DNA of 32,993 nt, from the NCBI GenBank assembly GCA_017550315.1, contig JAFZPN010000035.1:1-32993 (forward strand). Direction: 5' to 3'. The stretch's first letter is position 1. Every line of letters begins with the position of its first letter. Both the position numbers and the translations under genes were made by a program. Origin of the DNA: Clostridia bacterium. Its GTDB lineage: Bacteria; Bacillota; Clostridia; Oscillospirales; CAG-272. Below the pieces are notes generated by a model, which made no database searches, was not told the DNA's origin, and was given only the letters and a program-made list of their open reading frames with translations. Below, in pieces: positions 8,090 through 24,128 of the stretch.

Positions 8090-10405
8090 TTATTGGTGTT
8101 CGGCGAGCCAGATCGACACGCGGGACTGGATCTTCTTCGCACAGTCTTCGGCAGACCCGACACCGCCGAGGTAAGCGGAGATCTCTTCCTGTATAATGGC
8201 GGCGATCTCTTCATGGACGGATAGGGTATAGGGATAGCCGCAGCGGTTGTCGAGATAATCCATGATGAAGGCGGCGTCCGCTTCCGTGAACTCCGTGACG
8301 ATCCCGGGCTTATCCAGCGTCGAGGTGGTGATCGGGTGATCGGGATCCTTCTCCCCGACCACCTCCCAGCCGTCGAAATAGAAGGTGAAGACACTGTCGC
8401 GGTATTCCTCCGCTTTCCACTCGAAGTCCGTTTTCAGAACGGGCAGGCTGTCCCCCGGAAAACCGTCCGGATCGATGATGAGCGAGCGGATCACGTCCCA
8501 CGCGATCTCCGGGTTTTCGCAGAAGGAGGTCATGATGCAGACATCCCAGACGGTGATCGGCTGTCTCCCGTTTTCTGACGATACCGGCTGCCCGATCAGT
8601 CTGTAATCCTTCGTCCCGAATTCGATCTCCAGCGAGAGGAATTGGTTGAGGCTGTGGAACCACTTGTTCTTCAGCGCGACGCCTCCCGTCCAGTAGAACT
8701 GGTACTGCTCCTCCCTGCCGAGCCCACTCAGGGGATTCTGCGGCAGGCTGCGGGCTTCCTTCGCCGTGGCCGGAAGGGATTTCAGAAACGTGAGATACCG
8801 GATGAAGACGGGATCGGTGAAGTCGCAGGTCCCCGACTCCGCATCGATGAACGCCCCATATCCCTCCGATCCGAACAGCAGCCGCGCGGCATTCTCCTGC
8901 GCAAGCTCATCCATCAGGAACCTGTCGGACGGCAGGGAGGCGGCGTAATCCAGAAAGTCTTCCACCGTCCAGCTTGTCCGGTCCGCGTATTTCCCGAGCA
9001 GTTCCGCGGCCGAGAGGACGGAGCGGATCTCGTAGTCCCGCGCCAGTCCCCAGAGCCGCCCGTCCTTGTCGGAGAGCGTCCGCCGTACGCATCCGAAGAG
9101 GTTCTCGTCGTTCACGAGCGCGTCGTTTTTCGTGTAGGTCCCGAGGTCGACATAGAGACCGGACCGGACTGCCTGCTCGATATAGGGCTCGTCGATCATG
9201 CCGACGAGGATATCCGGGCGATACAGCCCCGTCACGAGGTCCATCGCCAGCTTTTTCCTTGCCGTGCCGATATCCCCGTCTCCGGCGGTATCGATATAAT
9301 CGCGGGTCACGATCTGCACGTCCGGATGCTCCGCGTTGTATCTCAGGATCTTCTCATTGAACATCGACATAAACGAACCGACGTGGGCAAGCTCGATGAC
9401 CGTCTTCTCACCGGGATCGTAGTCCTTCGCCCGCCGGTACAGCAGGGGGATCCTGTATCCGTCCTCATCCGCTTTCGAGAAAAACATCGTATTCTCATCC
9501 AAAACGCAGAACAGGGACGCGAGATAGAGCCGCGAGGAGGAACAATCCAGCAGCTGTTCCGTGCGGAGTTCTCCGTCAAACAGACCGTCCGCGCACCAGA
9601 CGCCGCCGCTTGTCGCGTAGTACGCCTCGTGATCCTCGCCGAACTGAAAGGCCGTGATCCCGTCGGGAAGGGCTGTACGATCCGAGAAGTCTTTCCCTGC
9701 GGGATCGATTTTCATCAGAACAGTGCCGTCTCCGGTGTTTACACAAGCAACTGCCGCGCCGTCCCCGTCCGTGCACAGGGCGAAGATCGGATCCTGGGAC
9801 GTCAGGGAGAACAGCGGGAGAAATCCGTCGCCGAAGCAGACGATTTCGTTGTCCGACGCGGCATAGATCCTGCCCGCTCCGTCGATCGCAACAAAGGAGA
9901 CGGCGAAGAACGGATCGCGATCGGCGAGGGCAAAGCAGTCCGTCAGCCCGCCGCTTCTGTCCGTTTCTCCGGCGGACGGGCGGAAGGTGTTCAGAGCATA
10001 TTCCTTCTGCCGGTCGGTTTCGGACCAGTTCACGCTCAGGAAGGCAAAAACGTCGTCCCGGATCGCCCCGCCGATGATGTTCTCCCCTTCCGTTACGGGG
10101 ACGGGGATATCCTCTGTCACGGATTCCGCGCCTGTGGTGAGGAGATGAAACTCCGTCCGTTCGTCTGCGTCCCGCTCGGCGAGGAAGGTGAGAAGGCCGC
10201 TCTCCCGGTCGTACCGCGGCGTCACGGTGCGGACAAGACGGTATTCCGCGGGAAACGGTACGGACTCGCCGAGATAAACCGACGGCGCGGCCGCCTCCGT
10301 CTTCTGTACGACGGGATCATTCAGAACGGTCTGCTGTTTCTTTCCGCATCCGGTCAGAAGAAGCGGGATCAACAAATAAATCAGAAAGCGTTTCCGTGTT
10401 TTCAT
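8090..10405 (-). CDS. Large lipoprotein: beta-rich N-terminal region plus solute-binding domain
   Basis: 771 residues. Lipoprotein signal with lipobox LLLTGC (Cys20). Residues about 45-325 are beta-rich with propeller-like repeats (VAIDGAGRIYAASDNEIVCF; TDGDGAAVACVNTGDGTVLM). From about 334 (KTVIELAHVGSF, then ILRYNAEHPDVQIVTRDY) it is an extracellular solute-binding domain, ending in the family signature AEDCAKKIQSRVSIWLAEH. An ordinary solute-binding protein has 430-500 residues, so the N-terminal 310 are an extra module. RBS GGGGAGG with nine-base spacing to the ATG at 10405. A TATAAA stands at 10446-10451 but no clear -35. It is the downstream-most of three paralogues. Ligand unknown; no permease or ATPase adjoins. 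Confidence 0.88.
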   Translation of the reverse strand: MKTRKRFLIYLLIPLLLTGCGKKQQTVLNDPVVQKTEAAAPSVYLGESVPFPAEYRLVRTVTPRYDRESGLLTFLAERDADERTEFHLLTTGAESVTEDIPVPVTEGENIIGGAIRDDVFAFLSVNWSETDRQKEYALNTFRPSAGETDRSGGLTDCFALADRDPFFAVSFVAIDGAGRIYAASDNEIVCFGDGFLPLFSLTSQDPIFALCTDGDGAAVACVNTGDGTVLMKIDPAGKDFSDRTALPDGITAFQFGEDHEAYYATSGGVWCADGLFDGELRTEQLLDCSSSRLYLASLFCVLDENTMFFSKADEDGYRIPLLYRRAKDYDPGEKTVIELAHVGSFMSMFNEKILRYNAEHPDVQIVTRDYIDTAGDGDIGTARKKLAMDLVTGLYRPDILVGMIDEPYIEQAVRSGLYVDLGTYTKNDALVNDENLFGCVRRTLSDKDGRLWGLARDYEIRSVLSAAELLGKYADRTSWTVEDFLDYAASLPSDRFLMDELAQENAARLLFGSEGYGAFIDAESGTCDFTDPVFIRYLTFLKSLPATAKEARSLPQNPLSGLGREEQYQFYWTGGVALKNKWFHSLNQFLSLEIEFGTKDYRLIGQPVSSENGRQPITVWDVCIMTSFCENPEIAWDVIRSLIIDPDGFPGDSLPVLKTDFEWKAEEYRDSVFTFYFDGWEVVGEKDPDHPITTSTLDKPGIVTEFTEADAAFIMDYLDNRCGYPYTLSVHEEIAAIIQEEISAYLGGVGSAEDCAKKIQSRVSIWLAEHQ

Positions 10406-10572: not shown

Positions 10573-12837
10573 TTATTGGTGCTCAGCGAGCCATATCGAC
10601 ACGCGGGATTGAATCTTTTTTGCGCAGTCTTCCGCGGTGCCGACGCCGGCGTAGTAGGCAGACGCTTCTTCCGTTACGATATCCAGAACGGGCTCCGGCG
10701 TGATGCCGAGGATGGGGGAGCCGCCCTCGTCGAACAGCCGGATCAGACGGTCATAATACTCCTCGCCCATCGTGTCTGCGAGCGGCTGTCCGTCCTCCTC
10801 TTCGGCCATTTTCACAAGAGCTGGCTTCCACGCGAAGATCGGGATGGGACGCGCGGAGTTCCGGTAGAGCTCCGGCATGAACAGCGTTTTGAGAAAATCA
10901 AAGCAGACGTCGGGGTATTCGGTGAAGGATGTGATCATCCAGAGATTGTCGGCAAAAAACCGCGTGCCGCTGCCATCCTCCGCCGGATATCCGATCGGTA
11001 CGCCGCCCCCGGAGTCTTCCTCCTCCCAGACCGCTTTGATCTCATGGTAATTCTGCCACGAGAAGGTGTATTCCATCCGGAAGAGCAGCTTCCCGCTCCG
11101 GAAGGCGTCCTGTTCAAATGTCGCCTCGTCGATGGCGGTGACACGTTTCCATTCCTCGAAATCCGCCGGGACCGATTTCATGTACTTCATGAAACGGATG
11201 AAGAGATCCGAATCGAACGAAGCGTTTCCGTCCCTGACAAACGGGCCGAAGCCGTCTTTCAGATACGGCAGAAAGCCGATCTGCCGCGACTGCCGGAACA
11301 TCACGTCCACGCCGTCGGGCAAATCTTCGACACAATCCAAAAACTCGTCGAGGGACCAGGTTCCCTTTGCCCGGCAATCCTCGGACAGGTACGTCGGATT
11401 CGCCACCAGCGTCTGTACATAGAAATTCGTCGTGATGCCCCACATGCCGCCCTCTCCGTCGTCGAACATGCGCGGCACGCATCCGAAGAGGCTGTCCGTA
11501 TTGACGGTATCGTCCGCGGCAAGGAGGGGCGCGAGGTCAAGATAAAGCCGACGGCCCGTGAGATAGCGGGCGGCCGACCTCTCCGAAAGGCTGATACGGG
11601 GCGTGGCAGTGAAGATCATATCCGGGCGGAAGCCGTTGTTTGCCATGTCGAAACAGAGCTTCGCTTCTCCGCCGTACGGATCCTCCTCCGTCGTAGCGTC
11701 GCTGTAATCCGCGACCTGGATGTTCACCTCCGGATGGTCGCGGTTGTAATCCCGCAAGGCGGACACCGCGCCAGGAAGCAGAGGCGTCGTAACGGCGACG
11801 GTCAGCGTGGGGATGTATTCCGTCCGATCCGTCCGGGCGCACAGAAGCGGAGAGGCATTCCGGTCCCCGTCAAATTCCACCGCGAGCAGAAGATCGTCCC
11901 GCAGCATGAGGGCTGGATAGAATCCCGCGCGGCTGCCCAGAAAGTCGAGACGCCCGCACAGTTCCCGGATGCCCGACGCGTCGAGATCGAGGAGCTTGTC
12001 CTCGTACAGTTTGCCGTTTTCCGCCTCACGCACGCCCCAGATCCCTTCGCTGTCACAGCAAAGGAAGAGGTACTCCCCGCCCGCGGAGGCAAGCAGGGAC
12101 CGCGGACTGTGCGACGAGCGGACAAAGAAGACAGGATCGCCGATGCGCCGTTCCTCTATCCGCATCGCATAGTATCCGTTTTTGTCTCCGGCATACGCCC
12201 AGACAGAGCCGTCCGACCCCGGCGCCATCGAGAGGATGGGCGAGCGGAATTCCGTCGTAAACTGCACGGCCAGGGAGGAATCCATCGCGATGAGGGTCGT
12301 GCCGTCGGTGCAATAGATCGTTCCCGCGGCGTCCGCTGTCAGGTGAGCGAGCGGCGCGGGCAGCATGCTGCCGATCTCCTGTGTATGTGTGACCTGACCG
12401 CTTGCGCGGTCGATCCTGTGGATCACGCATTGATCCCGGGATTCGTCCGTTGTGTACAGGGCATCGGAAGTCAGAATGCCGTGATCGGGAAATGCGGCCT
12501 CTCCCGGCAACGACAGCGTTGTTTCGGATAAAAGCTCTCCTCCATAAGAGAGTTCGCGAATCGAGACGGATGCGTTTTCCCACCCTTCCGCGGCATTTTG
12601 CAGGTTCACAAAAAGGACCGAAATCCGCTCTCCGTCCGTGGCGGGCAGGATGTACGGAAGCATGATGTCGCCTTCGCCCACGGCCACCTTCTGCTGTGAA
12701 AAGCGAAATGCCTCCCCGGCCGTATCTTCGGCAGCGCCATCCCCCGGAGAAGTCTGCGCTTTTCGGCACGAGCAGAACAGCGCGAAAAAGGCCAGCAGCA
12801 AAAGCATGATTCTCATCTTCCCTGTTCCGGATTTCAT
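10573..12837 (-). CDS. Large lipoprotein: beta-rich N-terminal region plus solute-binding domain
   Basis: 754 residues from the ATG at 12835-12837, chosen for its GGAGGT five bases upstream and the lipoprotein signal that follows (FALFCSC, lipid Cys24); earlier in-frame ATGs lie at or before the promoter. Residues about 45-335 are beta-rich (TADAAGTIYCTDGTTLIAMD; PGSDGSVWAYAGDKNGYYAM). From about 342 (YIPTLTVAVTTPLLPG, then NRDHPEVNIQVADY) comes the solute-binding domain, ending AEDCAKKIQSRVSIWLAEHQ. The last 65 coding bases before the stop are almost identical to those of the upstream paralogue, although the rest of the proteins has diverged widely. A vegetative promoter at 12880-12908 serves it. 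Ligand unknown. Confidence 0.88.
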   Translation of the reverse strand: MKSGTGKMRIMLLLLAFFALFCSCRKAQTSPGDGAAEDTAGEAFRFSQQKVAVGEGDIMLPYILPATDGERISVLFVNLQNAAEGWENASVSIRELSYGGELLSETTLSLPGEAAFPDHGILTSDALYTTDESRDQCVIHRIDRASGQVTHTQEIGSMLPAPLAHLTADAAGTIYCTDGTTLIAMDSSLAVQFTTEFRSPILSMAPGSDGSVWAYAGDKNGYYAMRIEERRIGDPVFFVRSSHSPRSLLASAGGEYLFLCCDSEGIWGVREAENGKLYEDKLLDLDASGIRELCGRLDFLGSRAGFYPALMLRDDLLLAVEFDGDRNASPLLCARTDRTEYIPTLTVAVTTPLLPGAVSALRDYNRDHPEVNIQVADYSDATTEEDPYGGEAKLCFDMANNGFRPDMIFTATPRISLSERSAARYLTGRRLYLDLAPLLAADDTVNTDSLFGCVPRMFDDGEGGMWGITTNFYVQTLVANPTYLSEDCRAKGTWSLDEFLDCVEDLPDGVDVMFRQSRQIGFLPYLKDGFGPFVRDGNASFDSDLFIRFMKYMKSVPADFEEWKRVTAIDEATFEQDAFRSGKLLFRMEYTFSWQNYHEIKAVWEEEDSGGGVPIGYPAEDGSGTRFFADNLWMITSFTEYPDVCFDFLKTLFMPELYRNSARPIPIFAWKPALVKMAEEEDGQPLADTMGEEYYDRLIRLFDEGGSPILGITPEPVLDIVTEEASAYYAGVGTAEDCAKKIQSRVSIWLAEHQ

Positions 12838-12879
12838 CCCGCACCTCCCGGATTCTGTTTCGTTTACTCTCATAATCCT

Positions 12880-12908
12880 ATCATACCACATTTTCCGAAC
12901 GATGTCAA
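12880..12908 (-). promoter_or_regulatory. Vegetative promoter of the middle lipoprotein
   Basis: TTGACA (12903-12908), 17-base spacer, TATGAT (12880-12885) on the minus strand. It sits in the short gap next to the stop codon of the upstream paralogue (12912). The -35 begins 66 bases upstream of the start codon at 12837. Confidence 0.85.
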
Positions 12909-12911
12909 TGC

Positions 12912-15188
12912 TCAGCGATGCTCTGCCAGCCATATCGACACGCGGGACTGAATCTTTTTTGCGCAGTCTTCCGCGGTGCCGACGCCGGCGTAAAATGCGG
13001 AGGTCTCTTCCAGAACGATGTCCGACACCTCCTCAGGGACCATGTCGATCCGCGGCGTCCCAGCGATGGTGTCCATCAGCCCGATTAGCCGCTCAACGTC
13101 GTCCTCGCCGAGTCTGCACACATATCCCGGCTCGTTCAAGTCCTCTGCCGTTCCCTTCTCAATTCCTGTAGAGAACACCAAGACATGATCGACCTTCGTC
13201 TCTTCCATGAGCGCTTCTCGCAAGAGGTCTTTCCGCACGGGGAGCGTTTTTCCGGAGTCCTGATTCAATTCCTGACAAATCCATTCCCATGCGAGGGAGG
13301 GGGCTTTGCAAGAGGATGTCATGAGATAGCAGTGTCTTGCCGTGAGGGGTGTGCCGTTGCGACCTTGTGCCGGATAACCGATCATGACCCAATTCTTTGT
13401 CCCGAATGTGGTTTCAAGACGCGAAAGCCCGTTTACGGCAGACATGCTGAAATGCGAGAGCGCAACACGGTTATTGTAGAAGTAATCGTACCGTTCCGCC
13501 CCGTCCGCCCGGCCAAGCTGCGAAACACTTACGTATTCTGTCCGATCTGTCGGGAGTGAGCTTGTAAAATTCAGAAATCGGACAAACAGCGGGCTGTCAA
13601 ACGAACAGACGCCGGTTTTCTGATCGAGAAAGACGCCGAGCACCTCTCTCCAGCTGTTGCCGGAAAAGGAGGTTCTTGTCAGATTGTCCTGCAGAAAAAC
13701 GTCCTCCGGAAGGTTTCCGGCAAAATCAAGATATTCCGCGAGAGTCCATCCGGATTCTCCGCGACCGGCATAAGTTCCGAGCATTTCTTCCGTGGAAAGG
13801 AGCGTCTCGAACGAAAAGCACGACGTGATGCCCCACATGCCGCCGTTCTCCGAGGCGAAATACCGTTGGACCGCGCCGATGATATTGTCCCGGTTCACGG
13901 TATCGTCCGTATCGAGAAACGGCGAAAGATCTTTGAGAAGACCGCTGTTTAACATCGTGAGCACCACCTCGTCCTGCGGAGACATGAGGATCAGGTCCGG
14001 TTCATAGAGTCCGTTCTGCATCTCCGTCATGAGCTTCCGCATTCCGCCGTCAGGGTTCTCCTTCGTGTTGTATTCCGTGTAGTCCTTGAGGATCAGGCGA
14101 GCATCAGCGTGATCCTGATTGAACGCCGCAATGCTGTTCTTCAAGAGCCGCGTTTCCATGTATTGATCCGCGCCGAGAACATCCGCGATCTCAAGAGTTA
14201 CGATCTCGTCGAGCGTGATATCGTTCCCCTGTTTATACAGCACGGGCCAGGAATCGGACCGGGAATCCCGATCCATGTCTTCATAGAAGAGGAAGTCTCC
14301 GTCTTCGGTCATCCCCCAAAGCCTGACGTTACTCGCGGCAACGTCGGAATTCGCATAGTCCATGAGAAGCGTCCGCGCAAATCCCTCTTCCGTTTCTGTC
14401 ACGCCGTACAGCCCGTCCGCAGACGCGTATCCGAACAGATAGCCGTCCGGAAAGAAGACCGCGAATACGCGCTCGCCGAGGCTGATCGTTCGGGCGGCCT
14501 TTTTGTTGTCCTTCTTCCAGATCTGCACGCCGTCGGATGTCGGGCTCCACACCGTTCCGTCCGGTGCCGGAAAAAAACCGTTCGCCGATCCGTTCAGCGT
14601 GTTGATGCGGAGAAAGTCGGAATCGAGCACGAGGATTTCGTTCGGCGCGGCAAGCCAGGTATTCCCTTCCGCGTCAACGGCTAGCGCCAGGATTCCTTCG
14701 ACAGTTCCGTTCTGATAAAGAGGGGACAGATCCTCGCTCGTACGCGTCATACCGGTATCGGCATCGAAAACGGAGAGACAGCAGCTCCTCCTGTCTCCGT
14801 CCCGGATCGTGAAGTAATAGAAAAGGTTGTCCCGGATTGCGCCGCGGAAATACTGTCCATCCGTAAGCGGAACGTCCGTCGTCTTCACAACGCCCTCACC
14901 GAGGCGTAGCTGGATGAACCGGCCGGTATCAGGGGTGACCGGATCATAAGCAAAGCAGTGCAGTGTTTTTGCGTCGGGATCATAGTAAGGCACAGTCGTG
15001 CCTGCGATCATGAGATCCTCATCCGTGTACGTACAGCGGATAAAAACGCCCGTGAGCAGGTCGGTCTTCTCCTCTGGCTGCTGTTCCGAAGCCCCGTTTT
15101 TGTGACAGGAAACCAGCAGAGGAAGGAGGAAGAGGATGGGCAGAAGCAGAAGGAAAACCCTTCTCTCTCGTCTGTCAAATTTCATCAT
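12912..15188 (-). CDS. Large lipoprotein: beta-rich N-terminal region plus solute-binding domain
   Basis: 758 residues. The N-terminus MMKFDRRERR leads into a hydrophobic stretch and the lipobox PLLVSC (Cys28). Residues about 45-325 are beta-rich (ALAVDAEGNTWLAAPNEILV; PAPDGTVWSPTSDGVQIW). From about 330 (TLEIADVLGADQYMETRLL, then NQDHADARLILKDY) it is a solute-binding domain that ends AEDCAKKIQSRVSIWLAEHR. GAGG lies eight bases before the first ATG. Codon use is slightly more AT-rich than in its neighbours. Its upstream region holds an ECF-type promoter element (15297-15331) shared with the sigma gene at 24055 and a weakened copy of the sister gene's vegetative promoter. No terminator separates it from the next lipoprotein, so some read-through is likely. 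Confidence 0.88.
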   Translation of the reverse strand: MMKFDRRERRVFLLLLPILFLLPLLVSCHKNGASEQQPEEKTDLLTGVFIRCTYTDEDLMIAGTTVPYYDPDAKTLHCFAYDPVTPDTGRFIQLRLGEGVVKTTDVPLTDGQYFRGAIRDNLFYYFTIRDGDRRSCCLSVFDADTGMTRTSEDLSPLYQNGTVEGILALAVDAEGNTWLAAPNEILVLDSDFLRINTLNGSANGFFPAPDGTVWSPTSDGVQIWKKDNKKAARTISLGERVFAVFFPDGYLFGYASADGLYGVTETEEGFARTLLMDYANSDVAASNVRLWGMTEDGDFLFYEDMDRDSRSDSWPVLYKQGNDITLDEIVTLEIADVLGADQYMETRLLKNSIAAFNQDHADARLILKDYTEYNTKENPDGGMRKLMTEMQNGLYEPDLILMSPQDEVVLTMLNSGLLKDLSPFLDTDDTVNRDNIIGAVQRYFASENGGMWGITSCFSFETLLSTEEMLGTYAGRGESGWTLAEYLDFAGNLPEDVFLQDNLTRTSFSGNSWREVLGVFLDQKTGVCSFDSPLFVRFLNFTSSLPTDRTEYVSVSQLGRADGAERYDYFYNNRVALSHFSMSAVNGLSRLETTFGTKNWVMIGYPAQGRNGTPLTARHCYLMTSSCKAPSLAWEWICQELNQDSGKTLPVRKDLLREALMEETKVDHVLVFSTGIEKGTAEDLNEPGYVCRLGEDDVERLIGLMDTIAGTPRIDMVPEEVSDIVLEETSAFYAGVGTAEDCAKKIQSRVSIWLAEHR

Positions 15189-17638: not shown

Positions 17639-18517
17639 TCAGTTCCGGATTCTCCGGATGGATAGTGCCGTGCCGTCGGTCGTGACGAGCCATGCGCCGC
17701 AGGCAAGTGCGGGCAGAACCCCGAGCGTCATCCCGGCCCAGGTCCCGAAGTAGTCGTTCGTCTCCTCGTGCCCGCAGAGGATCGCCGAAACGTCCCGGCT
17801 CTCCGCCGCCGCGCAGCCGATCCCGCCGTTCACGGTCTGACAGCGCGAATCCTCGCGGAAGACGCCGTCGAAGCGGCATGCGGCCTGATTCAGGGGGATC
17901 TCGGCGTGCTCGGGCGTCGGGGTGTGGAAGACGAAGAGTTCGCGGAGCGCGTGTCCGGCTTCTTTGGAACGGCGCGCGTGATCCTCGTCGAACCACGCCG
18001 TCTGACAGAAGCGGACGCCGTCCATGTAGTGATGCGAATAGAGCGGATACGGCAGGCGCGAGCGTCCGGGAGATCCGTAGTCCCGCTCGTAGCCCGTGGT
18101 CTCGCGGTGCGTGTCGAAGAGGCGGATGAGGAATTGCACAGTACCTTCCGCGATCATCGGGATCACCGCGTTTGTGATGCCGTCGATCCCCTCTGCACGC
18201 TCGCCGACGATGCATCCGGGGACGGAGGAAAAGATCCGGTCGAGTGCACGGGGATCGGTCCCGCATTTGTACTCGCCGTCGCCGAAGGTGTAGGTCCACG
18301 GCAGACCGGACAGCGGCACGAGAAACGCGTCTAACAGCGCGCGCGGATCGGCAGCGGGGGATGAAATCGTGTCGCCGTCGAGGATCACAAGATCGGGAGA
18401 GGCGGAGGCGATCATCGCGCCGAGCCTTGCGGAGGTTTCCTCGACCGTCTCCGGGGTGAGGCGCGCGGAATGCAGGAGCAGGATGCGGCACTCCCCTTCA
18501 AAGTGCAGTTCAGTCAT
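17639..18517 (-). CDS. Degenerate metallophosphoesterase paralogue (probable pseudoenzyme)
   Basis: 292 residues from the second of two adjacent ATGs, chosen because GGGAGG is then six bases away. It aligns along its length with the three phosphoesterases upstream but has lost most metal ligands. Motif I is LHSAR where the paralogues have SDxH (Asp to Ser17, His to Arg19). Motif III is FGDGE where they have GNHD (Asn to Asp80, His to Gly81). Motif V is GHEE where they have GHDH (second His to Glu252). The Asp of motif II (D49) and the His of motif IV (H198) remain. The frame is intact and the start overlaps the upstream gene, so it appears to be maintained, perhaps as a binding or regulatory partner. 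Catalysis by the usual two-metal mechanism is unlikely. Confidence 0.8.
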   Translation of the reverse strand: MTELHFEGECRILLLHSARLTPETVEETSARLGAMIASASPDLVILDGDTISSPAADPRALLDAFLVPLSGLPWTYTFGDGEYKCGTDPRALDRIFSSVPGCIVGERAEGIDGITNAVIPMIAEGTVQFLIRLFDTHRETTGYERDYGSPGRSRLPYPLYSHHYMDGVRFCQTAWFDEDHARRSKEAGHALRELFVFHTPTPEHAEIPLNQAACRFDGVFREDSRCQTVNGGIGCAAAESRDVSAILCGHEETNDYFGTWAGMTLGVLPALACGAWLVTTDGTALSIRRIRN

Positions 18518-19520
18518 CATGGCCCTCCCGGAACAGGAAATCCGCCGCGCCCGGACAGTTTTTCAGATAAACATGCTCCGAAGCAAACGCGCGCACATCG
18601 TTCTCGCGGAAGGTGAGGAGCCGTCCGCCGCGCAGATGATCCGAGCCGTACACATCGTAGCCGAGGGAGCCGTCCTCCGAGAGCTCGATCCCCATGTACC
18701 GCCCGGCGAAGGTGTTGATGTGGTCGTGACCGGCGACGACGGCGAGGATGTCCCCGCGCTCGTATGCCGCGGCAAACAGTCCCGGATTGACCGACGGGAT
18801 CCCGCAGGACTCCTCGAGCTCGCCCGTCATGCCGGTGAGGGAGGGATTGGTCGGGATCAGCCGGTGCTCCGTCAGCGGGATATGCATGAGCATCACGCCG
18901 GGGATCCGATGTCCGAAGGTCTCCTCGATCCGGCGGTCGGTCTGCCAGTACCAGAGCGCCTGACGGTGCAGGACGCCGCCTCCGTGATCAAAGCCCGTGG
19001 TCTGCGAGCGGAACTCCCACGGCTCCGGGATCCCGCATTCCCAACCCCACACACCGCCCCGGTGCGAGTCGAACGCCCAGAGCAGGAGCGCGGGTTCGTC
19101 CCCGCCGTCTGACGGATAGACGGGCAACAGATACGTCCCGTATCCCGGCAAATCCGCCGGACCGCGGACCGAGAGACAGTGCGGATGCGCGCCGAAGACT
19201 TCGGTCGGGATCCCCTCCTCGCGGTCGTGATTCCCCGGGACATGCGCCCACGGGATCCCGCGCGCCTCCATCGGTCCGGCGATGGCTGCGGCGTAACGGA
19301 TCAGCCGATCGCGGGAATCGAGCGCGCCGTTGTGCGTCAGATCGCCGAGGATCATGAAGAGATCCGGGTGTACGGCATCGAGCAGGACTTCCTCCGCCCG
19401 GATCAGCCGCTCGTCCCAGTCCCGGTCTTCGGGCGCGTGATAATCCGAAACGCAGAGCAGCCGAAATTCTCCCCGCCCGTCAAACGACAGCCGGATTTTG
19501 GATTCTTCAAACAGTTCCAT
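18510..19520 (-). CDS. Metallophosphoesterase (third paralogue)
   Basis: 336 residues, calcineurin-like phosphoesterase fold with all five motifs: SDYH (D26, H28), GD (D60), GNHD (N97, H98), MHIPLTEH (H213) and GHDH (H265, H267). The HIPLxE and W-H-x-x-GNHD settings resemble the Dcr2/purple-acid-phosphatase-29-like group. No signal peptide, so cytoplasmic. A segment of about 20 residues around 150-180 (SHRGGVWGWECGIPEP) differs from the paralogues and may shape the substrate pocket. The gap to the upstream gene is 15 bases and the gene overlaps the downstream paralogue. Likely a phosphomonoester or phosphodiester hydrolase; substrate unknown. Confidence 0.88.
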   Translation of the reverse strand: MELFEESKIRLSFDGRGEFRLLCVSDYHAPEDRDWDERLIRAEEVLLDAVHPDLFMILGDLTHNGALDSRDRLIRYAAAIAGPMEARGIPWAHVPGNHDREEGIPTEVFGAHPHCLSVRGPADLPGYGTYLLPVYPSDGGDEPALLLWAFDSHRGGVWGWECGIPEPWEFRSQTTGFDHGGGVLHRQALWYWQTDRRIEETFGHRIPGVMLMHIPLTEHRLIPTNPSLTGMTGELEESCGIPSVNPGLFAAAYERGDILAVVAGHDHINTFAGRYMGIELSEDGSLGYDVYGSDHLRGGRLLTFRENDVRAFASEHVYLKNCPGAADFLFREGHDD

Positions 19521-19535
19521 GCTTCCTTCTATCCA

Positions 19536-20579
19536 TCATGTGTTCAGGTCCCGGATGTAGTACTTGTCGCCGCCCTCGAAGAAGGCGGGATTGCGCATAC
19601 ATTTCTCGCCGACGAGATCCCAGAGGCGCACCTGCCGCGTCATCATCGAGCCGTCGTCCCGGATGTCGATGATCCGGCCGCCCCGCATGTCGTCGTGCGC
19701 GCTCATGTCGTACCCGACGCAGCCGTCGTAGGCCAGCGTGATCCCGCAGTATTCGCCCTGGAAATCGCAGAGGTGCTCGTGACCGGCGAAGATGCCCCGC
19801 ACATCGCCGCGCTCGAGGCACGCGAAGAATAGGCCGCAGTTCATTTCCGAGCAGGCCACGCCCTCGCGCTTGCGTCCGATGAAGCCGACCTCTTCCGGAT
19901 TGCGGTAGAGCAGGCAGAATTCGAGCAGCGGCACGTGGAGGAACATGAGGGCCGGGATCTTCCTACCGTGCGCGGACTCAGCGGTTTTTGAGTGGTTGTA
20001 GTACCACATCACCTGGTCAAACATCGGCGTCGCCTGCGGGTGTCCGTCGCTGAAATGCTTCGGGAGGACAAAGCGCGTGTCCGCCGGGAGGCCGAATTTC
20101 GCGACGTAGTCCCGCACTTCGGCATGGGAATCGAGCGCGTAGAGCGAATAGGCGACGTCATCGCCGTCCTTGGCGTACACGGGCAGGCAGTAGTTCCCGA
20201 CGCCCGAGATCTCAGCGGGTCCGGCATCCGAGAGGCAGAGCGGGAACGCCTCGTAGACGGGCTCCTGCTCCTCCTTCGTCATCGGCTCCTCCGCGTCGTG
20301 ATTCCCGAAGATGTGCGCCCAAGGGATCCCGCGGCGGTTCATCGGATCGGTCACATCCGTGAGGAAAGCGCGGAGCAATTCCGGGGTGATCCCGACGAGC
20401 TGGTCGCCGCCGAGCATTACGAAATCGGGCTTTGCGTATTCCACAAGCGTCTCGATGGCCCAGGGCAGCTTGGGGTTGTAGTCCGGCTTTCCGTGAAAGT
20501 CGGAGATCATCAGGATGCGGAAGCCGCCGTCCTCCCGGAACCGGAGCACGGGCTTCCCTCTTTCGTCCGCGGTCCTCAT
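19536..20579 (-). CDS. Metallophosphoesterase (second paralogue)
   Basis: 347 residues from the ATG at 20577-20579, which overlaps the upstream stop (ATGA) and follows a GGGGGA sequence. All metal motifs are intact: SDFH (D27, H29), GGD (D59), GNHD (N93, H94), LHVPLLE (H215) and AGHEH (H267, H269). The C-terminal 70 residues carry the paralogue-specific CGITLAYDGCVGYDM and MRGGRIIDIRD segments, also present in the first paralogue. There is no signal peptide. It belongs to the same operon and is most like the gene upstream. Likely a cytoplasmic phosphatase or phosphodiesterase of unknown substrate. Confidence 0.9.
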   Translation of the reverse strand: MRTADERGKPVLRFREDGGFRILMISDFHGKPDYNPKLPWAIETLVEYAKPDFVMLGGDQLVGITPELLRAFLTDVTDPMNRRGIPWAHIFGNHDAEEPMTKEEQEPVYEAFPLCLSDAGPAEISGVGNYCLPVYAKDGDDVAYSLYALDSHAEVRDYVAKFGLPADTRFVLPKHFSDGHPQATPMFDQVMWYYNHSKTAESAHGRKIPALMFLHVPLLEFCLLYRNPEEVGFIGRKREGVACSEMNCGLFFACLERGDVRGIFAGHEHLCDFQGEYCGITLAYDGCVGYDMSAHDDMRGGRIIDIRDDGSMMTRQVRLWDLVGEKCMRNPAFFEGGDKYYIRDLNT

Positions 20580-21595
20580 CCGACGCTGTCCCCCGCATGT
20601 CCCATAATGTCGCGTATCTTCACCGTGCGGGTCGTGAACGCCGCCGGATCGGACGCCCGGAAGTCGATCACGCGGCCGCCGCGCAGTTCGTTGATCTGGC
20701 AGGCGTGATAGCTGAGCGAGGCGTCGTAAGCCATGCGGATGCCCATATAGGTGAGATCGAAGTCGTTCAGGTGATCGTGACCGAAGAAAATGCCGCACAC
20801 GTCCCCGCGCTCGAGACAGGCGCGGAACAGACCGGAATTGAGCGAAGTGCAGGCGACGTCCTCCCACTGGATCCCGCGGATCCCCACCTCGTCCCGGTGC
20901 TTCGCCGCTTCGTGCATCTCCGGCAGGGGGATGTGCGTGAAGAGGACGGCGGGGATCTTGCGGCCCGCCTCACGCTCGATCCGCCGGGAGGTCTCGTAGT
21001 ACCAGAGAACCTGATCGACGTTGACCGTATCGTAGTCTCCGCGGCTGCCGACGTCGGGCGGCAGAGGCCTCAGGGAGGGATCGAGCCCCCAGCGTTCGGT
21101 CCATTCCCTCATGCCGGCGTGGGAGTCGAGGGCGAAAATGTTCAGAAGCAGCGTCTCCCCGTCGGCGGAATATACCGGGAGGACGTAGTTCCCGACGCCG
21201 GAGATCTCTTCCGGTCCGGCTTCGGAGACGCAGTGCGGATAGGATTCGTAGATCTTCTCGGCCTCTTCGTTCGGCAGGCCGTAGTTGTCGTCGTGATTGC
21301 CATAGACGTGGCACCACGGGATCCCGGCCTCCTCCATGGGCGCGGTGAGGCCGTCGAGCATGTCGCGGAGTTCTGCGCCGTTTTCGATGTGGATGACGCC
21401 CGGGCCCGCCGTGTCGCCGCCGAGGATGACGAGATCGGGGTGCTCCGCTTTGAGCAGAGCGTCAAGTGCGGCGACGGTCTTCTCGCGGTTATAGCCGACG
21501 CCGCTGTGGATGTCCGAGACCATCAGGATGCGGAAGGTGCCGTCCGAAGTGAACCGGAGCGGGATTTTCGCGGGAGGTGGGAATGTCTGTGCCAT
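20576..21595 (-). CDS. Metallophosphoesterase (first paralogue)
   Basis: 339 residues and first in the six-gene operon, directly behind a consensus promoter (21630-21658) with GAGG five bases before the ATG. Metal motifs are complete: SDIH (D28, H30), GGD (D61), GNHD (N100, H101), THIPLPEM (H221) and GHDH (H273, H275). The GVGNYVLPVYSADG segment and the C-terminal AYDASLSYHACQ are shared with the second paralogue. No signal peptide or membrane span. With two more intact copies and one inactive-looking copy downstream, it probably arose by tandem duplication, and the copies may act on related phosphorylated compounds. Confidence 0.9.
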   Translation of the reverse strand: MAQTFPPPAKIPLRFTSDGTFRILMVSDIHSGVGYNREKTVAALDALLKAEHPDLVILGGDTAGPGVIHIENGAELRDMLDGLTAPMEEAGIPWCHVYGNHDDNYGLPNEEAEKIYESYPHCVSEAGPEEISGVGNYVLPVYSADGETLLLNIFALDSHAGMREWTERWGLDPSLRPLPPDVGSRGDYDTVNVDQVLWYYETSRRIEREAGRKIPAVLFTHIPLPEMHEAAKHRDEVGIRGIQWEDVACTSLNSGLFRACLERGDVCGIFFGHDHLNDFDLTYMGIRMAYDASLSYHACQINELRGGRVIDFRASDPAAFTTRTVKIRDIMGHAGDSVG

Positions 21596-21740: not shown

Positions 21741-23441
21741 TTATTCCGTGATGTCGTTCACCGCGCCGGCAAGCAGGACCGTTCCGTCCTCCGCGGTGAT
21801 GAGGACGGCGAACGGGCGGTTGAAGATCACCGAGGCGCCCGGAGTTCCCCGCCGGATCTCCTCCTTCGATGCGAGCGAGGTGATGCTGTACGCGGCGGTC
21901 TTGACCCCTGTCTCGTCCACCGCCAAGCGTATCGGATGCTTCACGTGCGTGACGGCGTATTTCCTTTCCGTCGCCGCATCGTCCTCCGCCGTCTCCCGGA
22001 TGAGACGCAGGCGGTCATCCGCGCGATCCCGCTCGCTCTCGATGACGGATCCGAGCTTTTCCATGATTTCGCGGATACGGTCCTCGTCTTCGGGACGCGA
22101 CGCGCCTGCTGCGGAAACGGCGGCGAAATAATCCTCCGTCTTCGTCACGATCTCGTCGACGCAGTCCCGGATGCCCGTCAGGATATCCCGGTGGAACTGC
22201 ACTTCGCTCTCCGTCTCAAAATCCGTTTCATCCGTCCCGAAGAACGGGGAGAGGTTCGCCTCGCCGGGGGTAAAGGCCTTGTCCGCGCCGAGCGCCGTGA
22301 AGAGATCCTTCAGATCGACCTCCGACGCGACGCTGAACCGCGGGACGGCTGCGGCGGTCTGGGTCCCTTCGTTGCCGGATCTCGCCGCCGAGAAGAGAGC
22401 GCCCGCGGTGAGCAGGTCTTCCGGCGTCGTCCCCTCGTCCGGGAGCGCAAGCCAGAGATCCCCGCCCACGAGCAGCGGGATGCGCACGGCGGAAAAGCCC
22501 TCTCCTCTCACCGAATAGACCTCCGGCGCGACGATATACTCAGCGTCATACGCACCGGACTTGCCTGTAAACGTCGATATGCGCTTCTTCGAGAGGTCCG
22601 GGGCATTTTTGAACGCGGTGCGGATGTAGAGATAGCGGTCAAGCTCGATGCGGTCTTCCGGGCCGTATTCCCGCACGATAGATTCAAAGCCGAACCCAAA
22701 CGTCTTTTTTCCGCCCGACGGGCCGATGCCCCCGCCGACACCGCTGACGAAACGGATGAAGCCGAACGGGAACGGATCGCCGTTTTGGTATCAGCGAAAC
22801 AGGGGATCGAGTTTCTCCGCTCCTGCCGCCATGTCATCGGCCGGAAAATAGAAATGATAATACAGGTTCCCCTCCGTTCTGAGGACGGTGACCGCATCTC
22901 CGCGCGTGATCGTCCGGTAGTGCTCCGTCATCCGCTTCTCGAAGTCCGTGAGATCGGTCTCCCCGGCGAGATCGAGCAGCTGTGTGCGGGTGCTCCCGGC
23001 TGTCATATCCGCGAGCGAGACCAGACTGAGTTCTGCGTTATAAGGCGAATAGAAGAGGTTGCCGCCTTCCGACACGCCGAAAAGCGCTGCCACGGACCGC
23101 TCTGCAAAATCCCCGTCCGGCATCAGATCCGCGACCCGCTCATCGGTCTTCTCCCGCCACGCGAGATAGTCCTCGACGGTGAATTCCTCGAGATTCGGAT
23201 AGACGTTCGTGGCGGCGCAAGAGGGTTCCACCGGGTAGGTGGCGTAGGTCACCTCGACGCGGTGCGTCCAGCCGTAGAGGACGCCGCCCGCCGCGATGAG
23301 GATGGCTGCCGCGAGCGTTCCCCATCGGCGCACGAATGCGCGGAACGGCTTTTTGCGGGGCGTCTCCCGGACGGCTTCGGTTTCCGCGAGGATGCCGTCG
23401 TCGAGTTCCCCGATGGCTTCATGTATTTTTTCGGGTTTCAC
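21741..23441 (-). CDS. Membrane-anchored serpin / putative anti-sigma factor, interrupted by in-frame TGA
   Basis: One reading frame of 566 codons with a single internal TGA (22791-22793, codon 217). The start is GTG, overlapping the sigma factor stop by four bases. Residues 1-38 are cytoplasmic and begin KPEKIHEAIGELDDGIL, as in proteins cotranscribed with clostridial sigma factors. Residues about 41-58 are the membrane span. The outside part is a serpin: NLFYSPYNAELSLVSLADM (about 128-146), RFSVASEVDLKDLFTALG (about 368-385), hinge ETGVKTAAYS (510-519), and FNRPFAVLI (540-548) before the last strand. A charged helical stretch of about 90 residues (about 405-500) is inserted just before the hinge. 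The part after the TGA has no RBS of its own. It could be a recent pseudogene, a sequencing error, or read-through. Other genes here end in TGA, so it is not a sense codon. Confidence 0.8.
22791..22793 (-). other. In-frame TGA splitting the serpin gene
   Basis: Codon 217 reads TGA in the context CTG TTT CGC TGA TAC CAA. The frame stays open on both sides and serpin homology continues without a shift, so a single base change (from CGA or TGG, for example) explains it. Confidence 0.85.
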
Positions 23442-24055
23442 AGATCAAATCCCTCCTGTTCAAGATAGGTTTTCAAACCGGTCCTTGCGCGGAACAGCGC
23501 GCTGCGCACTTTCGATGACGTGCAGCCGAGGCGGGACGCGATCGTCTTCATATCCTCGCCGTAGAAATAGCGCAGGACGAAGATGATCCGGGCGTCGGAG
23601 GAAAGGCCGGTAAGGTAAGCGTTGATCGCCCGGCTCAGTCGCCGCCCCTCCGCCTCGTCCTCGGGACCGGGCGATCCTGAGACGATCTCGGCAAGCTCGT
23701 CGTAGGGCTCGGTCAGGTACGCCGGGATCCGCTTCCGGGCCCGGAGGTTCCGCAGAAGATCGACGGCGGCGGTGCGGGTGAGACGCGCGAGAAAGAGCCG
23801 CAGGGCGTCCGGGCGTTTCGGCGGGATCAGGTTCCACGCGCGCCAGTAAGTTTCGCTGACGCATTCTTCGGCGTCCTCTTCGGTCGGAAGCAGATTCCGG
23901 GCGACGGTCATGAGATACGGTCCGTACCGCGCGGCGCAGTCGGCGATGGCTCGCTCGTCGCGGTCCCAGAAGAGGCCGATGATCCGCTGATCCTCCCGCT
24001 CCCCGGCGTCGGGCTGCGGCAAGTCGGACCCGTGGACGGCAAGTTCCGGTTGCAT
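23438..24055 (-). CDS. ECF-family RNA polymerase sigma factor
   Basis: 205 residues from the ATG at 24053-24055, with AAGGAG seven bases upstream. Region 2 spans about 25-90 (RYGPYLMTVARNLLPTEEDA, then ECVSETYWRAWN) and region 4 spans about 140-200 (SDARIIFVLRYFYGEDM, then TIASRLGCTSSKVRSALFRA, the recognition helix). There is no region 1 or 3, as expected for a group 4 sigma factor. The gene is coupled to the membrane serpin by a GTGA overlap, the standard arrangement of a sigma factor with its anti-sigma factor. The promoter element at 24094-24128 has the form recognised by ECF sigma factors, so it is likely autoregulated. Confidence 0.92.
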   Translation of the reverse strand: MQPELAVHGSDLPQPDAGEREDQRIIGLFWDRDERAIADCAARYGPYLMTVARNLLPTEEDAEECVSETYWRAWNLIPPKRPDALRLFLARLTRTAAVDLLRNLRARKRIPAYLTEPYDELAEIVSGSPGPEDEAEGRRLSRAINAYLTGLSSDARIIFVLRYFYGEDMKTIASRLGCTSSKVRSALFRARTGLKTYLEQEGFDL

Positions 24056-24093
24056 GTGGGTTCTCCTTTCGATGGGGTTCTGAGACGTCTCTG

Positions 24094-24128
24094 CCCTTAA
24101 TGACGTAAAAACACGCAAAATGTTTCGC
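24094..24128 (-). promoter_or_regulatory. ECF-type promoter element (copy B), likely autoregulatory
   Basis: Minus strand: GCGAAAC (24122-24128), spacer of 16 bases after GAAAC, then CGTC (24102-24105), about 47 bases before the sigma gene. It matches 15297-15331 at 29 of 35 positions, including GTTTTTACGTC exactly. Confidence 0.8.

Follow-up and report, generated by a model that had tools for sequence, protein, structure and literature searches.

SigV-RsiV of Bacillus subtilis is among the closest described relatives of the locus analysed here. According to the available part of PMC5014341, RsiV is at once a receptor and an inhibitor of lysozyme, and once signal peptidase and RasP have cleared it, SigV is released and activates its own operon. 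The locus lies in a stretch of 32,993 nucleotides (the window) and would share with that system an ECF sigma factor, an anti-sigma factor with one span and an outer domain that both detects and blocks a host-type enzyme, and an operon of sigma and anti-sigma that is switched on by that sigma (PMC5014341, same part). RsiV as described there, however, binds lysozyme rather than a protease and has neither a serpin nor an irreversible trap. On the outer part of the window protein, Pfam gives only Serpin.

Two further systems resemble parts of the arrangement. In Bifidobacterium breve, SerRK/SerU provides protease-induced serpin expression with a serpin-dependent positive loop (PMC7822027 and PMC8012564, in the portions available). 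Induction by protease and serpin-dependent autoregulation are thus the points of likeness; however, SerRK/SerU is, in those portions, a two-component system with a separate serpin and has no sigma factor or serpin-regulator fusion. SigI-RsgI of Clostridium thermocellum also combines a sigma factor with a membrane anti-sigma factor whose outer domains are exchangeable, but SigI belongs to another sigma class, and the outer domains named in the accessible text are for polysaccharides (PMC3990059). Siropins, serpins of gut Eubacterium that inhibit human proteases, likewise come from a gut Firmicute; PMC5127057 contains neither "operon" nor "transmembrane", and in the part consulted "sigma", which occurs 4 times in the text, is the name of the reagent firm, with no link to a sigma factor told.

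A serpin joined to a sigma or anti-sigma factor was not found described in the titles, abstract openings or passages of the mostly open-access papers listed by full-text searches, and the available portions of PMC6718151, PMC5127057, PMC8233489, PMC3573020 and PMC3990059 describe no sigma-serpin pairing. Within that scope, ECF switches with membrane anti-sigma sensors are known, and a serpin as the sensor part appears to be new.

The locus and its interrupted frame

The elements of the locus, all on the minus strand, are as follows.

24102 to 24126, minus strand: GAAAC-N16-CGTC, a promoter-like element of the ECF type, 46 nt upstream of the sigma start (pattern match)
23438 to 24055, minus strand: ECF sigma factor gene, 205 aa, coordinates with the stop codon (Pfam and NCBIfam)
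23438 to 23441, minus strand: GTGA, shared by the sigma stop and the beginning of the serpin frame (sequence)
21741 to 23441, minus strand: frame for tail, membrane span and serpin domain, with one interruption (sequence; orthologs uninterrupted)
23322 to 23441, minus strand: cytosolic tail, residues 1-40, presumed anti-sigma domain (tail profile)
23262 to 23321, minus strand: single membrane span, about residues 41-60 (hydropathy of three orthologs, alignment)
21744 to 23105, minus strand: divergent serpin domain with the stop read through, about residues 113-566 (Pfam, hhalign)
22791 to 22793, minus strand: in-frame TGA, codon 217 (sequence)
21963 to 22232, minus strand: charged helix-like insert of about 80-90 residues, borders approximate (template gap and alignment)
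21861 to 21914, minus strand: reactive loop, P17 (Glu 510) to P1' (alignments)

Read on the minus strand, the sigma gene runs from an ATG at 24055 to a TGA stop at 23440-23438. Its product is an ECF sigma factor: it is short (205 aa), has regions 2 and 4 (Sigma70_r2 at 37.8 bits and Sigma70_r4_2 at 46.2 bits, both above the Pfam cut-off), and matches the NCBIfam sigma70-ECF model at 76.9 bits (cut-off 42.9). The serpin frame opens with GTG at 23441-23439 and shares GTGA with the sigma stop, so that the coordinates of the two frames bear out the overlap given in the initial annotation. The frame is 566 aa long and ends at 21741; translation with table 11 yields two pieces. The short N-terminal tail (about 40 residues) and the one span are present as that annotation had claimed, the borders of the span being taken from alignment and the hydropathy being computed on three orthologs.

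Among the 24 other genus genomes, three (G011, G015 and G023) were found to carry an uninterrupted ortholog behind the same sigma gene, the proteins being L035, L036 and L037 of 581, 576 and 565 aa. All have the sigma gene in front with the same overlap as in the window, the G015 sigma gene being cut by the edge of the retrieved stretch. Because the genus genomes are drafts, absence of the ortholog from the others means little.

It is nearly an even call whether the window copy, taken alone, is a broken locus in which sensing was lost through the stop, since what remains in front of it is the tail, the span and about 150 outer residues. The in-frame TGA at codon 217 speaks for such a loss, as does the splitting of L038 in G020 into two overlapping frames; L038 is distantly related to the window serpin and likewise follows an ECF sigma gene preceded by the same promoter-like element. 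Against it, the changes behind the stop look as constrained as those between intact orthologs (N/S ratio 0.39-0.46 for the window versus the three orthologs, 0.36-0.57 among the orthologs), and in a draft genome of 231 contigs the TGA may be an error or a minority variant. There is thus no sign of relaxed constraint downstream of the stop, which points to a break that is recent or polymorphic, or else an artefact of assembly. If the TGA is neither such an artefact nor a minority variant, the shortened sensor would make the window copy a deaf stub or a decaying locus. A recoded TGA was ruled out, because TGA also terminates the sigma gene where the serpin starts.

Compared with the G015 ortholog, the frame at 21741-23441 shows mosaic divergence, as if pieces had been exchanged. 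Several 15-codon bins (for example, codons 376-420) have zero base changes, the bins at codons 241-270 have 20 or more, and the loop region is among the strongly diverged stretches.

Directly downstream of the serpin frame lies a run of calcineurin-like phosphoesterase genes (Pfam Metallophos; 18510-19520, 19536-20867 and 20576-21595, minus strand), and the reading frame at 17639-18520 resembles them without a Pfam match. A neighbour scan of 118 of the 140 collected frames revealed no conserved neighbour of sigma-serpin loci, each of the listed top 25 of 161 families occurring in at most 5 members, and none of these 25 families was a conserved protease. In 24 of 52 loci, the nearest downstream gene has the same orientation, and in 10 it lies within 150 nt.

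Sigma-serpin pairing and the tail in gut Clostridia

The genome of the window has five serpin genes: three are lipoprotein-like and stand without a sigma gene (L001-L003), one is the window gene, and one (L004) forms a second sigma-serpin pair, which is intact. A serpin is present in 22 of 25 genomes of the genus. A family search with a profile of sigma-linked serpins, in which five candidates per genome were scored and the presence of sigma was checked in retrieved loci only, gave matches in 208 of 295 genomes; in at least 33 genomes among the matches listed, the match starts within the first 10 profile positions and so includes the tail. Named genomes were scanned with serpin-domain patterns, and the relatives were ranked by the whole tail-bearing protein. 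The best 80 of 198 relatives are gut MAGs (Clostridia, Oscillospiraceae, Lachnospiraceae, Blautia, Roseburia and others) and two isolate-like records, Cuneatibacter sp. NSJ-177 (L109) and Flavonifractor sp. AGMB03687 (L172). Through these cultured relatives, the idea can be tested independently of this draft genome.

An ECF sigma gene lies directly upstream, on the same strand, of 90 of the 165 distinct serpin frames in the retrieved loci, a fraction that is not a prevalence because the relatives were ranked by the whole tail-bearing protein and the starting alignment was sigma-linked. The sigma factor is of the window's subtype in 84 pairings and of another in 6. All of these counts are of distinct sequences, many of them related, rather than of independent events, and most of the genomes are MAGs. 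Among the 86 sigma-linked serpins seen with the first sigma profile, the frame overlaps the sigma gene in 77, and in 63 of these the overlap is four bases long; both counts are favoured by the choice of the serpin start nearest the sigma stop. Lack of a conserved pairing in relatives had been set beforehand as a refutation; the pairing is instead present, in the three orthologs and more widely among the 90 frames. Judged by gene order, sigma-serpin pairing is widespread in gut Clostridia. In a phylum-wide draw, the profile matched in 77 of 398 genomes; among 29 loci besides our own, 4 (L230-L233, three of them with yet another tail) have a sigma gene before a membrane serpin and 25 do not.

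Tandem serpin genes occur at L085, L117, L145, L146, L147, L160 and L161. These loci include tail-less second serpins behind a sigma-serpin pair, and L160 consists of two consecutive sigma-serpin pairs.

The tail follows the sigma gene closely. Since a start chosen near the sigma stop would make the comparison circular, serpins were scored with a tail-plus-span profile, and sigma was found upstream of 72 of 79 matching serpins versus 1 of 67 non-matching ones, after exclusion of 17 rows that had served for training and of two split frames, L005 (the window's own) and L038. Of the 7 matching serpins that lack a sigma gene, six have, by eye, only a short positive stretch and the span, among them three tandem second serpins (L145, L146 and L161), and the seventh, L141, has what looks like a full tail. 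In all of the sigma-linked serpins scored (84 of 84, with two rows omitted), the segment preceding the span carries more positive charge than the one following it. Six loci (L104, L113, L124, L145, L146 and L161) have a sigma factor of the other ECF subtype and a differing tail.

In the window's own genome, the tail profile marks five places (E<=3.2e-6), each immediately downstream of an ECF sigma gene. Two of them are the sigma-linked serpins, which are training rows of the profile, and the other three are non-serpin proteins (L195-L197). Six weaker matches (E 0.013-0.67) were left unused. This occurrence on non-serpin proteins agrees with the earlier assignment of the N-terminal tail to a sigma-associated type. 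The tail looks like a modular anti-sigma domain; the serpin protein, with its gene directly behind sigma, a predicted cytosolic tail and one predicted span, has the layout of a membrane anti-sigma factor, and an anti-sigma role is likely. L195, L196 and L197 are tail-bearing membrane proteins with other outer domains, behind three more ECF sigma genes. Pfam gives no match for L195 and L197, and the three proteins may be other sensors, of unassigned kind, on the same tail module.

The genus also has lipoprotein serpins (L001-L003, L045 and others), which belong to the same superfamily; those of the L045 kind have the hinge and an N-terminal segment in common with the sigma-linked serpins. Unlike the sigma-linked ones, the lipoprotein serpins carry a lipid-anchor signal in place of tail and span, and no ECF sigma gene lies upstream in the retrieved DNA. 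On a serpin tree (FastTree, 160 rows), the state with or without sigma changes 21 times by parsimony over weak forks, while the first tail type needs 20 changes versus 53.7 in shuffles and the starred branches force only 6. Such changes suggest that sensor and switch were joined or parted repeatedly.

The serpin domain and the presumed promoters

Serpins are metastable proteins that change shape irreversibly when cut, and as spring-loaded protease traps they are familiar from blood. The window frame, read through, matches Pfam Serpin at 68.6 bits in two stretches (cut-off 27), and the relatives L004, L109 and L172 score 179.5, 228.9 and 219.4 bits. An hhalign comparison of the window protein and its three orthologs with eight canonical-type serpins gave a probability of 99.85 (E 9.1e-31, 395 columns), and the serpin recognition of the initial annotation thus stands. 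In phmmer searches against solved serpins, the ortholog L100 has only a weak match (conserpin at 2e-6, over part of the domain) and the isolate serpin L109 finds an engineered conserpin at 4.1e-39. The strong profile match together with the weak single-sequence match argues that the window serpin belongs to a divergent class of real serpins. This class has a long branch on the tree and a large insert near the loop; the insert, of 80-90 residues, precedes the strand that leads to the reactive loop and is restricted to the window class. No RsiV-type outer domain was found by Pfam on the window frame, L004, L109 or L172, and no NCBIfam model matches L109, L100 or L004.

The hinge of the sigma-linked serpins appears compatible with loop insertion. 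Positions P14, P12, P10 and P8 are all small in 72 of 85 sigma-linked rows, and 10 of the remaining 13 have Ile at P8 or P14; in the window these positions are Val, Thr, Ala and Ser. A literal match to the classical hinge ExGTEAAAA is absent. Most sigma-linked rows have a bulky residue (Tyr/Phe) at P9, and at P14 they have Val or Cys in place of the classical Thr. Across 26 disjoint close pairs of sigma-linked serpins, the hinge is 95.0% identical, the bait loop (P7-P4') 64.3% and the remainder of the domain 76.2%. Hinge identity exceeds that of the remainder in 25 of these pairs, and bait identity falls below it in only 15 (in 104 of 140 when all pairs, which overlap, are counted). Serpins without sigma show a similar hinge pattern (22 pairs; hinge 93.6, bait 71.9 versus rest 74.0), and the pattern therefore speaks for trap function generally and not for sensing. 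By these features, the sigma-linked serpins look like working traps.

The serpin could alternatively be the receptor of an anti-sigma factor for a ligand other than a protease, so that binding and not attack on the loop is the signal, as the hormone-carrying serpins bind ligands. The evidence for an anti-sigma role would be identical, and the unusual loop and core of the window class, with its insert, would suit a receptor. We nevertheless regard this as unlikely: as in traps, the hinge is the most conserved part and is insertion-compatible in most rows, and the bait is more variable.

By the 17-residue rule, P1 of the window serpin is Lys 526, and the three orthologs have Arg, Lys and Arg. 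P1 is Ala, Gly or Ser in 63 of the 85 sigma-linked rows, and the sole three rows with Lys or Arg are the window's orthologs. That the target protease of the window class is trypsin-like is a guess with some support, made because of the Lys or Arg at P1 in the window and its orthologs.

Upstream of the sigma gene, the element GAAAC-N16-CGTC is the only match in the window (0.01 expected from shuffles, with a pattern written from the site itself); it is the same before sigma in G011 and G020 and has one change in G023. Across the 25 genus genomes there are 9 sites versus 8 for the reversed control, and the site count is therefore no evidence for targets of the window sigma. At other sigma-serpin loci, the motif occurs in 1 of 80 regions versus 0.9 in shuffles. 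A palindrome, GAGACGTCTC, lies at about 24081-24090 between the promoter-like element and the sigma start, and is also present in G011 and G023.

In G011, two motif sites precede lipoproteins by 42-43 nt; in G020, a single site stands 32 nt upstream of the longest reading of a third lipoprotein, about 107 nt before its likelier Met. These three lipoproteins are homologous; they are not claimed as targets of the window sigma, because the family is common, with three members in this window alone. The window members are large lipoproteins of one family (8090-10405, 10573-12933 and 12912-15188, minus strand), homologous to L188-L190 (E down to 6e-174); relatives in G011 and G020 stand behind copies of the window-sigma motif. 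They have weak solute-binding-protein matches and beta-propeller-like text. The stretch 1-1851 is perhaps a fourth member, with a solute-binding match below the cut-off only.

A second motif, (T/C)GTCA-N16 or 17-GCGAC, was found through frequent word pairs at sigma-serpin loci and then scanned; it marks a group of 13 loci. The loose pattern fits 14 of 83 regions, one of which, L129, seems to be coding sequence. Across the 13 genomes of the group, 14 sites in 12 genomes match the short motif, versus 6 for the reversed control; 12 of the sites are the sigma-serpin promoters from which the motif was derived, and 2 are others. The longer motif, with up to 3 mismatches, gives 11 sites in 10 genomes versus 3 in the control, and 10 of the 11 are sigma-serpin promoters. 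The strict motifs, which leave room for other targets, revealed no further target beyond the group's own operon; self-regulation of the sigma-serpin operon would therefore be the simplest reading for these 13 loci.

A serpin as the proposed sensor of a sigma switch

The reading that we consider on balance probable is an ECF sigma/anti-sigma switch in which an inhibitory-type serpin serves as the outer protease sensor, with a loop that replaces the spent serpin. At rest, the tail would hold sigma at the membrane, as its family and the gene order suggest. A protease outside, the presumed trigger, would attack the reactive loop; the loop would insert, and the serpin would be spent, either cleaved or locked to the protease, as the hinge and loop pattern implies. 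Removal of the spent serpin would follow, the simplest route being stepwise proteolysis in which an RseP-like site-2 protease makes the last cut; alternatively, the serpin would pass its change to the tail. Either way, sigma would be freed and would transcribe its own operon from the element in front, which is seen in two groups of loci. The serpin would be remade until intact serpin is again in excess, and would thus be both gauge and shield. An M50 protease is encoded in the genome of the window, as it is in all 14 control genomes.

This switch would account for the coupling of tail to sigma (72 of 79 versus 1 of 67), the tail on three non-serpin proteins, the positive-inside span, the pattern of identity in hinge and bait and, in one group, a presumed promoter found almost only at its own operon. 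Against it stand the interrupted window copy, the bulky P9, Val or Cys at P14, a bait less conserved than the remaining domain in just 15 of the 26 pairs, the insert near the loop and the long branch of the window class, and the strictness of the motif searches. The precedents of RsiV and SerRK/SerU make the mechanism plausible by analogy; here one protein would do both jobs.

Another possibility, which we rate as improbable, is that the serpin guards the anti-sigma factor by inhibiting a protease that cuts between serpin and membrane. The loop would then send no signal, and sigma would be freed only once the protease overwhelms the serpin. The same anatomy and the presumed self-regulated operon fit this arrangement, which differs from the protease-sensing switch only in the site of the decisive cut; nothing specific points to it, and the top 25 families of the neighbour scan hold no conserved protease. 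That the protein is a plain protective membrane inhibitor, no anti-sigma factor but a partner in the operon of an autoregulated sigma, is very improbable: closely related tail-less serpins do exist as lipoproteins and parsimony puts 21 changes of fusion state on the tree, whose forks are weak, but the tail tracks sigma and also occurs on non-serpin proteins behind ECF sigma genes.

A more general principle can be put forward only tentatively, as it is rather more doubtful than the switch itself: the serpins would act as fuses, one-shot gauges spent by protease, each freeing a sigma factor whose main or only target is the operon that makes the gauge. If so, these bacteria would in effect tally proteolytic attacks while their membrane carries a protease shield that renews itself, and the bait loops would shift along with the proteases met in the niche. 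A serpin placed on the outside of an anti-sigma factor would be a direct, one-way protease sensor.

The protease-sensing switch would assign a role to a large set of so far unassigned gut-clostridial serpins. It raises testable questions, namely, what bacterial serpins are for and whether the springing of a serpin can signal across a membrane. Many gut bacteria pair an ECF sigma factor with a serpin-headed membrane protein, and they may sense proteases by letting the trap spring.
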